Part shown: positions 58,502-64,000 of the stretch, in pieces
How positions within the stretch are numbered: position 1 is the first letter of the stretch
Layout: each line of letters starts with the position of its first letter
Source: Jatrophihabitans sp. GAS493
GTDB lineage: Bacteria > Actinomycetota > Actinomycetes > Mycobacteriales > Jatrophihabitantaceae
Reading direction: 5' to 3'
NCBI RefSeq assembly: GCF_900230215.1
Contig: NZ_LT907982.1
Coordinates: 3,706,001-3,770,000, forward strand
DNA length: 64,000 nt
Position numbers and translations under genes: made by a program
The notes under the pieces: model-generated
Databases searched by the model: none
Seen by the model: the letters and a program-made list of their open reading frames with translations, nothing else
Told to the model about the DNA's origin: nothing

Positions 58502-59731
58502 TCAGTCGCTCGCGGCAGTTCCGGTTGGATCGAAGAGATCAACCACCTCACCGACGATCACCACGCTGGGCGCGCTCAGGCCGGCTTCCCGAACCTGGGA
58601 CGCCAGGTCGCCGAGCGTGGACCGCACCGTCTGCTGGCCGGCGAGAGTCGCTCGGTGTATCGCCGCGGCGGGAGTCTGAGCGGGGCGACCGTGCCGAATA
58701 AGCTCGCTCGTGATCTCCCCCAGGTGCTCCATGGCCATCAGCAACACGATCGTCGCCGGGCCGGTGGCCAGCGTGGCCCAATCGAAGCCCTTCGAGCCGC
58801 TGGCCGGATCGAGATGCCCCGAGACAACCGCGAAGTCGGCCGCCACCCCACGATGGGTCAGTGGAATCTGCGCGGCCGCGGGAGCGGCCAGTGCCGAGCT
58901 GATTCCGGGCACAACACTCACCGGAATACCGGCTGCCATGCAGGCCAGCATCTCCTCGGAACCGCGACCGAAGACGAATGGATCGCCACCCTTGAGACGG
59001 ACCACCCGCTTCCCGGCTCCGGCCCGGGCAATCAGGATCTCGTTGATCTGCGCCTGCGTCAGGTTGTGTCGATGGGCGGACTTTCCGCAGTCGATGATCT
59101 CCACGTGATCGGGCAGATCGGCCAGCAGTTCTCTGGGAGCCAGGCGGTCGACCACGACGACATCGGCCTCCGCGACCAGGCGGCGGCCACGGACGGTGAT
59201 CAGCTCGGGATGGCCGGGACCGCCACCGACCAGTGCCACCGACCCATGCTTGGCCGCGCGCACCGGGCGGGATTCGAGCGAACCGAGATCGATCGCCAAG
59301 GCGATCGCGTCCCGCAGGGCGAGCGAACGCTGCGGGTCGTCTCCGCTGGTGATTGCGACGGTGACTTCGCCGCGGCGCAGCAGAGCCGGAGTTCGGGCTG
59401 ACCCACCGGGCGCGTGGTCGGAGCGAATACAGAAGACCCGCGCTCGGGCCGCGACCGACGCCACAATCTCATTGGTCCGGGCATCGTCGGTGCAGGCGCA
59501 GACGAGCCACGCGCCGTCAATGTCGCCCTCGACGAAGGTTCGCCGGGTGACGGTGAGCTGTGGGCCGGCCTGAGCGTTGAGCTCGGCGACGACCTCAGGC
59601 GCGACAACCTCGATCTGAGCCTGCGCCTCGAGCAGGCGGGTGACGCGGCGAGCCGCCACCGCACCGCCACCGACGACCAGCACCCGACGCCCGGCCAGGT
59701 CGAGCATCAGCGGGAAGTCAGTCACGGACAT
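58502..59731 (-). CDS. cysG: siroheme synthase: precorrin-2 dehydrogenase fused to uroporphyrinogen-III C-methyltransferase
   Basis: A 409-aa CysG-like protein. Residues 1-150 are the SirC/Met8-like NAD-dependent dehydrogenase (RRVLVVGGGAVAARRVTRLL; CIRSDHAPGGSARTPALLRRG). Residues about 155-400 are the SAM-dependent methyltransferase (VALVGGGPGHPELITVRG, VRLKGGDPFVFGRGSEE, VVPGISSALAAPA, PLTHRG). Together they turn uroporphyrinogen III into sirohydrochlorin or siroheme, the cofactor of the sulfite reductase encoded at the right end. ATG 59731 is preferred over an upstream ATG at 59776. It lies 119 bases after cysN in the same orientation. Confidence 0.93.
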   Translation of the reverse strand: MSVTDFPLMLDLAGRRVLVVGGGAVAARRVTRLLEAQAQIEVVAPEVVAELNAQAGPQLTVTRRTFVEGDIDGAWLVCACTDDARTNEIVASVAARARVFCIRSDHAPGGSARTPALLRRGEVTVAITSGDDPQRSLALRDAIALAIDLGSLESRPVRAAKHGSVALVGGGPGHPELITVRGRRLVAEADVVVVDRLAPRELLADLPDHVEIIDCGKSAHRHNLTQAQINEILIARAGAGKRVVRLKGGDPFVFGRGSEEMLACMAAGIPVSVVPGISSALAAPAAAQIPLTHRGVAADFAVVSGHLDPASGSKGFDWATLATGPATIVLLMAMEHLGEITSELIRHGRPAQTPAAAIHRATLAGQQTVRSTLGDLASQVREAGLSAPSVVIVGEVVDLFDPTGTAASD

Positions 59732-59850
59732 ATGGTCGCAGGCTCCGCCGATAGGACCACCAGCGAGCCGCCGCATTGTGCTGCAGAGCTACCTCCGGCA
59801 GCGCGTGGCAGCCCAGTGTCTGACGCCGCCGCGCCCGCGACCGGCGGCAT

Positions 59851-61107
59851 TCAGTTGGGGAATTCGGCGACCATGCCCGCCGCCACGGTCGCCCCAGAGG
59901 CGTCGTCGACGAGCAGGAAGGCACCAGTGGAACGATTCGTGGCGTAGGCATCGACGATGATCGGATCGGCCAGCCGGATGCGGACGTTCCCGATGTCATT
60001 GAGCCCGAGTTCCGTAGCGGGCTCACTCGTCACGGTCGCCACATCGAGCTTGCTGACCACCCCGTCCACGACCGCCCGCACGTCGCGGGTGGTGTGACGC
60101 AGCGAGAATCGGTCGCCCGCGCGGAGCGGACGGTCGGTCAGCCAGCAGAGGGTGGCGGTGACCTCTCGGGTGACGACCGGTCGCGGATCACGATCGACCG
60201 CGAGCAGGTCCCCGCGGGCGATGTCGATGTCGTCGGTCAGGCGCAGCACGACCGAGCGCCCGGCGGGTGCCTCAGTGAGCTCGCCGTCGGGCGTATCGAT
60301 GCCTTCGACGGCGCTGCTGCGCCCGGACGGGAGCACGACGATCTTGTCGCCGACCCGTAGCGTGCCGGCCTCGACCCGACCGGCGTATCCGCGGTAGTCG
60401 GGGTATTCGGCTGAACGGGGCCGGACGACGACCTGTACCGGGAATCGGGCTGGAACATCCAGGGCCGGCCGCGACTCGACATCCTCCAGGAACTGCAGCA
60501 GGGCGGGCCCGGTGTACCAATGCATGTGGGTCGATGCATCGACGACGTTGTCGCCGGCCAGGGCCGCGATCGGGATCGGGGTGAAACTCGCAAGTTTCAA
60601 GCTGGCCGCGGCTGCCGCGAAATCGGTGACGATCTGGTCGAAGACATCCTCCGCGTAGTCGACCAGATCCATCTTGTTCACGGCGAGCACGACGTGTTCT
60701 ACCCGCAGCAATTGCGCGACGGCGGCATGCCGCTTCGTCTGCTCAACCACACCGCTACGGGCGTCGACCAGAATCACCGCGACGTCAGCCGTCGATGCAC
60801 CGGTGACTGTATTTCGGGTGTACTGCACATGACCCGGCGTGTCGGCCAGGATGAACGTGCGCCGGGCAGTGGCGAAGTAGCGATAGGCCACGTCGATGGT
60901 GATGCCCTGCTCGCGCTCGGCGCGTAGCCCGTCGACCAACAGCGCCAGGTCGGCGCCGTCGTAACCACGTCGTTCACTTGCAGCCTCAACGGCGGTGAGC
61001 TGATCGCTCAGCACTGCCTTCGCATCGTGCAACAGGCGGCCGACGAGGGTGGATTTGCCATCGTCGACCGAGCCGGCCGTAACGACACGCAGAAGCTGTC
61101 CTGGCAT
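59851..61107 (-). CDS. cysN: sulfate adenylyltransferase subunit 1 (GTPase) CysN
   Basis: The regulatory GTPase of ATP sulfurylase, 418 aa, related to EF-Tu. G1 is AGSVDDGKSTLVGRLL, G3 is ADTPGHVQYTRN and G4 is NKMDLVD, followed by two beta-barrel domains. GTP hydrolysis drives APS formation by CysD. It lacks a fused APS kinase domain, in agreement with the separate cysC upstream. ATG 61107 is 4 bases after the cysD stop. Confidence 0.96.
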   Translation of the reverse strand: MPGQLLRVVTAGSVDDGKSTLVGRLLHDAKAVLSDQLTAVEAASERRGYDGADLALLVDGLRAEREQGITIDVAYRYFATARRTFILADTPGHVQYTRNTVTGASTADVAVILVDARSGVVEQTKRHAAVAQLLRVEHVVLAVNKMDLVDYAEDVFDQIVTDFAAAAASLKLASFTPIPIAALAGDNVVDASTHMHWYTGPALLQFLEDVESRPALDVPARFPVQVVVRPRSAEYPDYRGYAGRVEAGTLRVGDKIVVLPSGRSSAVEGIDTPDGELTEAPAGRSVVLRLTDDIDIARGDLLAVDRDPRPVVTREVTATLCWLTDRPLRAGDRFSLRHTTRDVRAVVDGVVSKLDVATVTSEPATELGLNDIGNVRIRLADPIIVDAYATNRSTGAFLLVDDASGATVAAGMVAEFPN

Positions 61108-61111
61108 GAGG

Positions 61112-62080
61112 TTAGAAGTACCCCTGACGTTTCCGGTCTTCCATGGCGGCCTCGCTTGCGCGATCGTCGGCCCGCGAGGAACCCCGCTCGGAGATGGTCG
61201 AAGCTGCCGTCTCGACGAGAACAGCGGCGACATCGGTAGCAACTGAGCGGACCGCTCCGGTGCAGGTGACGTCCCCGACGGTACGGTAGCGGACCGACTC
61301 GACGCGAACCGTCTCACCATCCCGCGGCTGGGTCCAGCCGGTGACGGCGACGATCATGCCGTCGCGGTCGAAGACCTCACGCTCGTGGGCGTAGTAGATG
61401 CTGGGCACCTCGATGCCCTCACGTTCGATGTAGGCCCAGATGTCGAGCTCGGTCCAGTTGGAGAGCGGGAAGACACGGACGTGCTCACCCGGGCGGTGCC
61501 GCCCGTTGTACAGATCCCAGAGTTCGGGGCGCTGGTTACGCGGATCCCACTGGCCGAAGTCGTCACGCACCGAGAAGACGCGCTCCTTGGCCCGGGCCTT
61601 CTCCTCGTCGCGGCGCGCGCCGCCGAGCACGGCGTCGAACTTTCCGGCGGCGATGCCATCCAGCAGCGTCACCGTCTGCAGCGGGTTACGCGGCTGCCCC
61701 GGGGTCTCGTGAACGCGGCCGGTGTCGATCGACTCCTGCACGCTGGCGACGGTGAGCTTGAGGCCCATCTCGGCCAGGTGACGGTCGCGGTACTCGATGA
61801 CCTCATCGAAGTTCTGCCCGGTGTCGACGTGCATCACCGCGAACGGCACCTTGCCCGGCCAGAAGGCCTTAGCTGCGAGGTGCAGCATGACGATGGAGTC
61901 CTTGCCACCGGAGAAGAGGATGACCGGGCGCTCGAACTGGCCGGCCACCTCGCGGATGATGTGCAGTGACTCATCCTCCAAGTCGGTGAGCCAGGAGCGG
62001 TTGAGCACATCGGGGCTTGTCGCATTACGCCCTAGTTGGACGCCAGCCCCGCCCACCGGACGGGTTGCAATTGCAGTCAC
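61112..62080 (-). CDS. cysD: sulfate adenylyltransferase subunit 2 CysD
   Basis: The catalytic subunit of ATP sulfurylase, 322 aa, forming adenosine 5'-phosphosulfate from ATP and sulfate. The PP-loop ILFSGGKDSIVMLHL, VDTGQNFDEVIEYRD, GGARRDEEKARAKERVFSVRD and FPLSNWTELDIWAYI are all family hallmarks, and the C terminus ends RKRQGYF as usual. It starts with GTG 62080 in a GTGA overlap with the cysC stop and is followed by cysN after 4 bases. Confidence 0.97.
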   Translation of the reverse strand: MTAIATRPVGGAGVQLGRNATSPDVLNRSWLTDLEDESLHIIREVAGQFERPVILFSGGKDSIVMLHLAAKAFWPGKVPFAVMHVDTGQNFDEVIEYRDRHLAEMGLKLTVASVQESIDTGRVHETPGQPRNPLQTVTLLDGIAAGKFDAVLGGARRDEEKARAKERVFSVRDDFGQWDPRNQRPELWDLYNGRHRPGEHVRVFPLSNWTELDIWAYIEREGIEVPSIYYAHEREVFDRDGMIVAVTGWTQPRDGETVRVESVRYRTVGDVTCTGAVRSVATDVAAVLVETAASTISERGSSRADDRASEAAMEDRKRQGYF

Positions 62081-62670
62081 AGGACTCTCTCCTTTTGCAG
62101 TAGAGCAACCAGCTCGTCGACGACGCCGTCGACCGTCCGATCACTCGTGTCTAGCCGAAGTTCAGGGTTTTCCGGTGCTTCGTATGATCCGTCGACGCCG
62201 GTCAGGCCGAGCAGCCCACCATTGCGCTGCTTGCCATAGAGGCCCTTCACGTCACGGGCCTCGCACACCGCGACCGGTGTGGCGATGTGAATCTCAAAGA
62301 AGCTGACTCCGGCGCCACGGTGCGCGTCCCGGACCGCATCCCGGGCCTGGGCGTACGGGGAGACAACGGAGGCAATGGTGACGACTCCGTGCGCCGACAG
62401 CCGCTGCGCAACCCAGCCGATACGGGCCACGTTTAGGTCGCGGTCCTCGCGGCTGTACCCGAGCTCCGTCGAGAGGACCGGCCGAACCGCATCGCCGTCG
62501 AGGATCTCGACGGCCACTCCCCGACCGGTCAGACGGGCGGCCAGGGCATTGGCGACGGTGGTCTTGCCGGAGCTCGGAAGGCCGGTGAGCCAGAGCGTTG
62601 CACCAGTCGTGCGCACGCCGGATGCAACCGCGCCGTCGGGCGCGAATCCGGTCTGGGCATCGAGCGACAT
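62077..62670 (-). CDS. cysC: adenylylsulfate kinase CysC
   Basis: APS kinase, making PAPS from APS and ATP. The 197-aa protein has the P-loop LWLTGLPSSGKTTVANAL (Walker A at 30-37), the family motif VEILDGDAVRPVLSTELGYS, RIGWVAQRLSAHG and the substrate segment ARDVKGLYGKQRNG. The start ATG 62670 has AAGGA 5 bases upstream; an ATG at 62685 is weaker. It is the first structural gene of cysC-cysD-cysN and has a leader peptide gene 177 bases upstream. Confidence 0.95.
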   Translation of the reverse strand: MSLDAQTGFAPDGAVASGVRTTGATLWLTGLPSSGKTTVANALAARLTGRGVAVEILDGDAVRPVLSTELGYSREDRDLNVARIGWVAQRLSAHGVVTIASVVSPYAQARDAVRDAHRGAGVSFFEIHIATPVAVCEARDVKGLYGKQRNGGLLGLTGVDGSYEAPENPELRLDTSDRTVDGVVDELVALLQKERVL

Positions 62671-62846
62671 GTTCGTCCTTCGCATGGGCTGCGCACGGCA
62701 GCGATGGCGGTCAGCTACTGGTGAGATCGACTTGACAATTGGCTACCTGAGAGTCAGCCGGGCATACGCCGGGAATCATCAGGAGCAGGATCGGTCCGTC
62801 ATCGCCTACCGCAGAGGGCAGCGAGACCGCTCGGGGAACCGATCAG
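62671..62846 (-). other. cysC leader region downstream of the leader peptide
   Basis: 176 noncoding bases between the leader peptide stop and cysC. If attenuation occurs, the alternative RNA structures or a Rho-dependent stop should be in this stretch. I did not see a textbook terminator with a U-tract. Confidence 0.4.
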
Positions 62847-62924
62847 TCAGGACATCAGACACGCCGCGCTGGTCACGCGCTGCAGATCAACATGCAGGCG
62901 AGCGACGAGCAGGACGGTGAACAT
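62847..62924 (-). CDS. putative sulfur/cysteine leader peptide, 25 aa
   Basis: A 26-codon ORF reads MFTVLLVA then RLHVDLQRVTSAAC and a short end. The HVDL-x-R-x-x-S-A-x-C core matches the actinobacterial leader peptides found upstream of sulfate and cysteine genes (consensus RRHVDLxRVxSAxC). The Cys near the end would make ribosomes stall when charged tRNA-Cys is low, altering access to the downstream cys genes. It lies between the cys promoter region and cysC on the same strand. No strong ribosome site is seen before the ATG. It is far too short for ordinary ORF finders and is supported by motif and position only. Confidence 0.75.
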   Translation of the reverse strand: MFTVLLVARLHVDLQRVTSAACLMS

Positions 62925-63153
62925 GAGCTAATCGTCTCACACGCTCGCGCAGTTGGGCCAGCGGCGTAACGTATGTAACGCTCTAGCTCGGTCACTGTCG
63001 GCTAATCCCGCTCAGATGCTTGTCTCGTCCATCCGGTGCTCATCCGCTCGGGTGCGGCCGTGGCAGTGCAGACTTAGTCGCCAGCTCAGCCGCCTGCGTC
63101 GACACGGCCGGCTTGAAATGTCGTCACAAGACTTCCACGAGAGGAACCGTTGC
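62925..63153. promoter_or_regulatory. divergent promoter region between cysCDN and the siroheme reductase
   Basis: 229 bases hold both outward promoters. A direct repeat GTAACG-TAT-GTAACG lies at about 62966-62980, 45-55 bases upstream of the leader ATG, and is a candidate regulator site. Toward the reductase GAGAGGA (63139-63145) precedes the ATG at 63154 by 8 bases. An in-frame ATG at 63118 has no ribosome site. I could not find an HVDL-type leader on the plus strand. Confidence 0.45.
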
Positions 63154-64000
63154 ATGGCCGTGCGCCGAGGACAGGGTCAATGGGCGCTGGGATACCGCGA
63201 GCCACTGAATCCGAATGAGCGTAGTAAACGCGACAATGACGGGCTCCTCGTCCGCCAGCGGGTCCTCGACATCTATCAGCACACCGGCTTCGCCGGCATC
63301 GACGCAGCGGACCTGCGCGGTCGACTGCGCTGGTACGGCCTCTACACGCAGCGCCGTCCCGGGATCCCGGGTGGCCGCACCGCCATCCTCGAGCCGGAGG
63401 AGCTCGAAGACGAGTACTTCATGATGCGCATCCGCACTGACGGCGGCGCCACTACGTCGGAGCAGCTGCAGGTCATCGGCGAAATCTCCACCGAATTCGG
63501 ACGCGATGTGGCGGATATCACCGACCGCCAGAACATCCAGTTGCACTGGATCCGGATCGAGGACGTGCCGGAGATCTGGCGCCGGCTGGAGGCCGTCGGG
63601 CTCAACACGACCGAGGCCTGCGGCGACACCCCCCGCGTCATGCTGGGCTGCCCGCTGGAAGGCGTGGCGCAGGATTCGGTGCTGGACGCGGGACCGCAAC
63701 TGCGTGAGACCGTCGCGAAGTACGTCGGCGACCCGGCGTTCTCCAACCTCCCGCGCAAGTTCAAGACCTCGATGACCGGCTGCTCACGCCACTGCACCAA
63801 CCACGAGATCAATGACGTGTCGTTCGTCGGCGTGATCGGCCCGGACGGCACGCCCGGCTTCGACCTCTGGGTCGGCGGCGGCCTCTCCACCAACCCGATG
63901 TTTGCGCAGCGCCTCGGCGTCTTCGTGCGCCCGGAGGAGGTCAGCGACGTCTGGGTCGGGGTCATCTCGATCTTCCGCGACTACGGCTACCGCCGCTCCC
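63154..64000 (+). CDS. ferredoxin-type nitrite/sulfite reductase, partial (3' end beyond the window)
   Basis: The first 282 codons of a siroheme and 4Fe-4S reductase. Reading from ATG 63154: a GQGQWALGYREPLN start as in actinobacterial SirA, the ferredoxin-like half domain (FMMRIRTDGGATTSEQL), DRQNIQLHWI, EACGDTPRVMLGCP, KFKTSMTGCSRHCTNHE with the first cluster Cys pair, and GFDLWVGGGLSTN. By neighbourhood (cysCDN, cysG) it should reduce sulfite to sulfide rather than nitrite; sequence alone does not separate the two. AGAGGA lies 8 bases before the ATG. The gene is cut by the window edge, not broken. Confidence 0.93.
   Translation, partial: MAVRRGQGQWALGYREPLNPNERSKRDNDGLLVRQRVLDIYQHTGFAGIDAADLRGRLRWYGLYTQRRPGIPGGRTAILEPEELEDEYFMMRIRTDGGATTSEQLQVIGEISTEFGRDVADITDRQNIQLHWIRIEDVPEIWRRLEAVGLNTTEACGDTPRVMLGCPLEGVAQDSVLDAGPQLRETVAKYVGDPAFSNLPRKFKTSMTGCSRHCTNHEINDVSFVGVIGPDGTPGFDLWVGGGLSTNPMFAQRLGVFVRPEEVSDVWVGVISIFRDYGYRRS

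Follow-up and report, generated by a model that had tools for sequence, protein, structure and literature searches.

Leaderless open reading frames (ORFs) that respond to cysteine were reportedly described in Mycobacterium smegmatis by Canestrari in 2020, and we take Ms4527A (family NF042936) and Ms5788A (family NF042933), from their names, to be two such M. smegmatis ORFs. The tna leader of E. coli, a TnaC-type upstream ORF (uORF), is said to act through Rho-dependent termination. In the sections available of two studies of M. smegmatis (PMC13236596, PMC9031893), cysteine-responsive control is presented as translation attenuation. The cys leaders of Seliverstov 2005 (PMC1262725), as far as the accessible text goes, resemble the locus studied here in being ORFs placed before a cys operon with no terminator; they differ in carrying runs of Cys codons near the stop. 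Likewise, uORFs of the TnaC and CruR type (for CruR, in the available part of PMC9426467) share with our locus a conserved nascent peptide near the stop and the lack of a hairpin terminator, and with its family C-rich RNA past the stop.

The window analysed here is a 64,000-nucleotide stretch of DNA from Jatrophihabitans sp. GAS493. It contains MFTVLLVARLHVDLQRVTSAACLMS, which reads as 25 codons plus TGA on the minus strand, from 62924 to 62847. These are exactly the coordinates at which an initial annotation had proposed a leader peptide; the plus strand over 62847-62924 encodes another peptide. That annotation had also assigned the ORF to a sulfur leader family and suggested a family search, and the leader scores 36.7 bits against NCBIfam NF042934 (cis_reg_atten, "putative leader peptide"), which passes the cut-off of 27; this NCBI model would itself give the ORF a name. 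Against NF042936, the Ms4527A family, it reaches 30.4 bits, under the cut-off of 45. The motif is shared with Ms4527A and Ms5788A, but the window leader has one Cys codon and not a Cys run, where the Ms4527A family is Cys-rich. A known RNA family was rejected as a candidate, since no Rfam cis-regulatory RNA match reached its gathering score (best match isrG, 9.7 bits against 100).

Gene order and Pfam domains bear out the claimed position of the leader before cysC-cysD-cysN (Table 1), where the GTG start of cysD overlaps the cysC stop. The reductase gene described as divergent is sir, which starts at 63154 on the plus strand. It had also been remarked that the reductase often belongs to the same unit. 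In many of the 80 loci listed from a pattern scan of named contigs, sir comes before any other gene that could be recognised and cysD or cysC follows later, in line with that remark. The scan was peptide-based, allowed TGT or TGC, and found at least 120 stretches; all 80 listed stretches reach a stop 15 to 22 codons past the first Arg. Inspection by eye of the three plus-strand frames before 63154 revealed no remnant of a sir-side leader in the window, and this candidate was rejected.

Table 1. Coordinates of the leader and neighbouring features in the window.
Feature	Position	Strand	Basis or remark
Leader ORF, ATG to TGA	62847..62924	-	NF042934 score; synonymous-only sister differences
Conserved motif R-L-H-V-D-L-Q-R, residues 9-16	62877..62900	-	12/12 cysC/cysD-type leaders; synonymous changes
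Control Cys codon TGT, residue 22	62859..62861	-	TGT bias across leader sets
GUCCU, predicted partner of cysC Shine-Dalgarno AGGAC	62849..62853	-	Folding prediction
Post-leader 60 nt, conserved RNA or DNA element	62787..62846	-	59/60 identical to sister
Predicted -10 hexamer GACGAT	62931..62936	-	6 nt before ATG; TGTGA at 62937-62941 precedes
GTTACATACGTTAC, direct repeat GTTAC-ATAC-GTTAC	62966..62979	-	Identical in sister genome (alignment)
cysC, adenylylsulfate kinase	62077..62670	-	PF01583 8.5e-55; alternative upstream ATG 62685 possible
AAGGA, probable cysC Shine-Dalgarno before ATG 62670	62676..62680	-	Read from sequence
cysD, sulfate adenylyltransferase subunit 2, PAPS-reductase-fold	61112..62080	-	PF01507 2.6e-42; gene name putative
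cysN, sulfate adenylyltransferase GTPase subunit	59851..61107	-	PF00009 2.2e-40; gene name putative
cysG-like siroheme synthase, start approximate	58502..59776	-	PF00590 and PF13241
sir, divergent sulfite/nitrite reductase (NIR_SIR)	63154..64000, past window end to 64806	+	PF01077 and PF03460

The leader ORF is conserved and selected as a peptide. It is identical to the sister genome at 75 of 78 nucleotides, and all three differences are synonymous. Identity is 66/70 in the nucleotides before the leader ATG, 59/60 directly past the leader, 75/102 in the next stretch and 54/66 at the beginning of cysC, where the far end of the alignment is rough. Within codons -13 to 0 (relative to the control Cys), the 12 cysC/cysD-type leaders described below show, with respect to the window sequence, distinct single-base variants that are synonymous in 16 cases out of a possible 34 and non-synonymous in 2 out of a possible 92 (Fisher p 3e-9, relatedness ignored). 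Judged by its sequence, the window ORF is a genuine, conserved leader of a known family, to which it adds a further member with a clear operon subtype. With NF042934 it shares score, motif and position before sulfur genes; the subtype, which reads RLH, and a rule for the Cys codon are what is added here. By eye, an inverted repeat, GATCGGT...ACCGATC, is seen in the post-leader stretch (62787-62846, minus strand).

The 4.88 Mb genome yields 11 NF042934 matches at E <= 10, five of them at E <= 1e-4, the threshold at which matches were taken as leaders, and four over the cut-off. All five leaders precede sulfur-related or transport genes: cysC, a rhodanese-domain protein, two binding-protein-dependent transport permeases and a luciferase-like monooxygenase. 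The presence of several independent leaders in a single genome agrees with the mycobacterial type of cysteine-responsive attenuator. The leader before the monooxygenase scores 25.6 bits, below the NF042934 cut-off, and the rhodanese leader scores 41.0 bits against NF042933, under the cut-off of 45. Besides the cysC leader, the genome (G000) has its four leaders outside the window, at 428445-428498 (-), 4380247-4380294 (-), 4386268-4386315 (-) and 4387102-4387152 (+).

Within the taxonomic family, 21 of 24 genomes have a match over the NF042934 cut-off. The search gave 65 hits at E <= 0.001, one of which had no region and was left out, and the next gene of each of the remaining 64 leaders was assigned by tblastn against the window genome's own proteins. 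Five gene kinds account for 58 of these leaders (cysC/cysD 12, sir 15, rhodanese-domain 20, permease 5, monooxygenase 6), and six were unassigned by tblastn. Absence from relatives had been named as grounds for refuting the leader; we find it conserved before the same kinds of gene. Leaders occur on both arms of the cysC/sir pair in five genomes (G003, G011, G016, G017 and G021), with match edges 175-238 bp apart, and in G014 the cysC-side and sir-side leaders lie on one contig, about 2.9 kb from each other. The two genomes of the window's genus gave no hit for a leader before sir.

At the level of the order, 53 of 61 genomes are over the NF042934 cut-off. In an even draw from the phylum, the count is 6 of 119 genomes with the window genome included, all from one class. 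The 14 control genomes gave no match at E <= 0.001 and none over the cut-off in any search; 10 of them have weak matches at E <= 10. Three leaders from another family of the order (L216, L217 and L218) contain five or six consecutive Cys codons, and L216 precedes a rhodanese homologue.

The initial annotation had described the first Arg of the usual RRH as replaced. The gapless profile alignment shows Arg retained at -13 and Leu in place of the second Arg, at -12. This Leu is shared by all leaders of the same operon type: each of the 12 cysC/cysD-type leaders reads R-L-H-V-D-L-Q-R-V-[V/T]-S-A-A-C, and RLHVDL is found in none of the rest of the family set (n=64). RLH is therefore no oddity within the family set, where it is the signature of the cysC/cysD operon. 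Among the new loci from beyond the family, four RLH leaders found in the order stand before cysC (two), cysD (one) and a cysG-like gene (one). The RLH leaders L242 and L248, from another family of the class, lie ahead of genes that we take to resemble cysO and cysM, so that RLH is not tied to cysC everywhere. With the one correction at the second Arg, the initial reading of the leader is supported and was essentially right.

The control Cys codon is TGT in all 64 family leaders (63 of 64 until a single partial profile match was read through to its last Cys). Among the named-contig matches listed, TGT is found in 77/80 and TGC in 3/80, the exceptions being from Lentzea, Geodermatophilus and Streptomyces humidus. 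The order and phylum searches add 39 further loci, 38 with TGT and one with TGC. For comparison, long GC3-rich frames at these loci, some of the frames being non-genes, have TGT at 738/4394 and 221/1304 Cys codons (17% each), and the frames of the window at 44/231. Cys at -7 shows the opposite of the control codon, being TGC in 21/21 and 8/8 cases (29/29). At -4, -2 and -1, the site of Cys runs in mycobacterial and rhodococcal leaders, TGT accounts for 6/13, 5/7 and 6/7 in the named set listed. A C follows the control codon directly in 54/64 family leaders, 67/80 of the listed named loci and 25/39 further loci.

A per-codon table of the 132 unique leaders among 144 (64 family plus 80 listed, duplicates removed) places the peak of codon bias at the control Cys, with TGT in 129/132 and a G/df of 432, the strongest of the tabulated positions, in counts that share ancestry and are non-independent. 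The Arg at -6 and the Asp at -9 are also biased, and codons -8, -5 and -2 are at background (G/df 1.3, 0.9 and 1.1). The Ser at -3 is encoded by AGY in 90 of the 97 unique leaders with Ser at that position, against a background of about 29%. Even within the window's genome alone, whose five leaders encode differing peptides, the control codon is TGT in all five.

An exact pattern search, which a second copy could escape, found one tRNA-Cys gene, with anticodon GCA. By analogy, UGU, which would be read by wobble, should be the slower of the two Cys codons at the control point. In a study of the his leader (PMC4046918), the sections available link a G:C over a G:U third-position pair to faster reading at particular codons. 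The accessible part of PMC1183508 calls the early idea of rare codons, with leu as the example, an oversimplification, since major codons are preferred elsewhere, for instance in the thr leader. Codon bias in attenuators is known, so that the principle behind UGU is not new and rarity is by itself an insufficient reason. As far as the available passages of the following reports go, UGC dominates in the Cys-codon uORF that precedes cysS in Rhodobacterales (PMC8632094), the likely essential Cys codons of six cysteine-rich regulatory ORFs of M. tuberculosis lower the G/C skew (PMC9094748), and none of eight leader peptides of S. lividans is named as cysteine-dependent (PMC8079986). We found no description of a UGU rule for NF042934-type leaders in open-access papers, and PMC6429828 and PMC3862929 yielded nothing on such leaders.

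Upstream of the leader, TGTGA and the hexamer GACGAT end six nucleotides before ATG 62924, from which we predict a leaderless mRNA starting at 62924. A pattern of this kind, TGTGN-NANNNT, lies 5 to 7 nt upstream of an in-frame start codon in 23/64 family leaders against 0.1 expected from shuffles, the pattern having been picked after viewing these same sequences. By type, it is present before 10/12 cysC/cysD and 13/15 sir leaders; in the named loci listed, it is found in 2/80 (0.2 expected). A sigma-70 scan gave nothing. The direct repeat, which lies roughly 42 to 55 bp upstream of the predicted start, is a possible regulator or -35 region site. Four cysC-type leaders of related genomes (L045, L048, L053 and L082) have a palindrome-like CGAGAC-N4-GTCTCG upstream, with one mismatch in L045; none is seen by eye upstream of the window leader.

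Taking these observations together with those on the peptide and its Cys codon, we consider it on balance probable that the ORF is a leaderless, translated control element, in which stalling at UGU carries a cysteine signal and releases the masking of cysC. The leaderless start, the UGU stalling, the cysteine signal and the output step are all parts that we infer. RNA polymerase would start at or near the leader ATG, and the ribosome would read the R-L-H-V-D-L-x-R motif and then the single UGU, which tRNA-Cys(GCA) would decode with a G:U wobble pair. A shortage of charged tRNA-Cys would keep the ribosome waiting at UGU, and the parked ribosome would let cysC-cysD-cysN be expressed. With ample cysteine, it would reach the stop four codons on and leave, and the operon would be held down. 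The published work on mycobacterial relatives, in the parts available, is the ground on which the window leader very probably senses cysteine shortage. For this locus, the output step that we prefer is one in which the leader end (UGU plus GUCCU) masks the ribosome-binding site of cysC, because the accessible descriptions of those relatives speak of translation attenuation.

Folding predicts that the window locus is able to mask the cysC start. GUCCU pairs with AGGAC with a probability of about 0.6 in the shorter fold and 0.94-1.0 in the longer one. Both sister genomes show this pairing, and in two folds, the longer one of the window and that of the sister, the UGU also pairs with the AUG region. 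In these two folds the AUG becomes more accessible once a ribosome is placed at UGU, going from 0.00 to 0.33 and from 0.05 to 0.49, respectively. The outcome depends on length: in the shorter fold the AUG is already 0.34 accessible, and UGU is unpaired with it. In the stalled state, the accessibility of the window Shine-Dalgarno sequence falls, from 0.40 to 0.22 in the longer fold and from 0.36 to 0.11 in the shorter.

Release of the Shine-Dalgarno sequence as a family-wide output was rejected on two negative results, both drawn from leaders with a placeable next start (59 and 62 of 144). Folding with a ribosome footprint at UGU leaves the downstream Shine-Dalgarno region no freer across 59 leaders (mean change +0.020, median -0.002), and in 62 leaders own leader/Shine-Dalgarno pairs have no advantage over swapped ones (-8.60 and -8.57 kcal/mol). 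For the cysC type, with some starts uncertain, own pairs are worse than swapped ones (11 leaders, -9.35 versus -10.64, permutation p 0.93); the permease type alone comes near significance (5 leaders, p 0.06). A transcription attenuator with an intrinsic terminator was also rejected, as no terminator-like site occurs in 62640-63200 and the folded leader RNA has no extra stability against shuffles (z -0.17). Consensus folds were matched by column shuffles in a share of 0.03 of 60 (leader only), 0/60 (leader plus 60 nt) and 0/40 (sir type). Against synonymous recoding, the mean z is -0.23 overall (126 leaders), -0.12 for RRH (102), -0.42 for RLH (11) and -0.98 for the rhodanese type (13). From this weak effect, we conclude that peptide constraint explains most of the consensus-fold signal. 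An in-leader hairpin as the cause of codon choice was rejected, the effect being small and larger only in the rhodanese type.

The same sensor could instead act through Rho: a parked ribosome would cover a C-rich, G-poor loading site, and on its exit Rho would stop transcription before cysC. We regard this output as plausible, yet tend to doubt it. It agrees with the missing terminator between leader and cysC and with the near-complete conservation of the 60 nt past the leader stop. Over the 40 nt past the stop, 96% of 140 leaders have more C than G; the share is 61% among 834 control 5' intergenic stretches, a coarse control set whose stretches may enter coding DNA where the next gene is unplaced. 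Mean C-G is 0.201 in leaders and 0.051 in controls, and the leader value drops further downstream to 0.130 (114) and then 0.116 (94). This composition table holds 143 of the 144 leaders after removal of duplicates, including the listed named loci, and 140 were used for the first stretch. Rho termination was proposed for the terminator-less mycobacterial cys leaders in 2005, as a "rather weak" prediction in the text available (PMC1262725), and the CruR uORF is described, in the part accessible, as having a C>G bubble and Rho termination (PMC9426467). The window, however, hardly shows a bubble, with 15 C to 13 G among the first 41 nt; over 165 nt, C is 0.352 and G 0.279. The C-rich, G-poor RNA after the leader stops thus suggests Rho family-wide, but hardly so in the window. 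The locus would accordingly differ from TnaC and CruR in its weak C>G excess and in its signal, which would be cysteine. The description of the mycobacterial relatives as translation attenuation also speaks against Rho and for the masking that we prefer.

A different role for the peptide, which we judge rather unlikely, is that nascent R-x-H-V-D-L-x-R would be more than a passive spacer and serve as an arrest signal, one that either reads a sulfur metabolite or makes the ribosome hypersensitive at the next Cys codon. The motif is kept as amino acids, with codons -8, -5 and -2 at background use, and in 63/64 family hits the control Cys is where the profile match stops, the remaining match being partial; fixed spacing, however, is built into both profile and pattern. 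The model of PMC1183508, as far as the available text shows, predicts low sensitivity where regulatory codons make up only a small share, so that a contribution by the peptide would be reasonable. Against this, the poly-Cys relatives suggest that codon sensing alone can suffice. That the leader is only a translation enhancer or coupling ORF, with no sensing, is very improbable. PMC4833913, in its accessible part, describes a proposal that short leader ORFs help reinitiation and gives actinobacterial examples, but the window leader stops 176 nt from cysC, far past the peak at 10-11 bp given there, and the Cys codon rule would have no role. A chance ORF can practically be dismissed: short ORFs are common, and 15 of at least 20 aa overlap a 551-base stretch here, but the family score, the controls, the synonymous-only change in the sister and the mainly synonymous variants among the 12 cysC/cysD-type leaders contradict this explanation.

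A wider reading, which we offer only tentatively and think improbable as a whole, would make the actinomycete sulfur leaders dual sensors. The conserved nascent peptide would prime the ribosome, so that the single wobble-read UGU, at its set distance and with C mostly next to it, would be enough to sense cysteinyl-tRNA, and exit of the ribosome would expose a C-rich Rho site. If so, changing UGU to UGC would break or blunt control without a change in the peptide. What the analysis adds is the near-invariance of UGU, a codon rule without an explanation, which offers a one-base, peptide-neutral handle on single-codon amino-acid sensing. For the organism, the sulfate-activation operon and four other loci gain likely cysteine control, pointing to a small regulon run by ribosomes without a repressor, and the leader family to which it belongs is present over the cut-off in most sampled genomes of the order.
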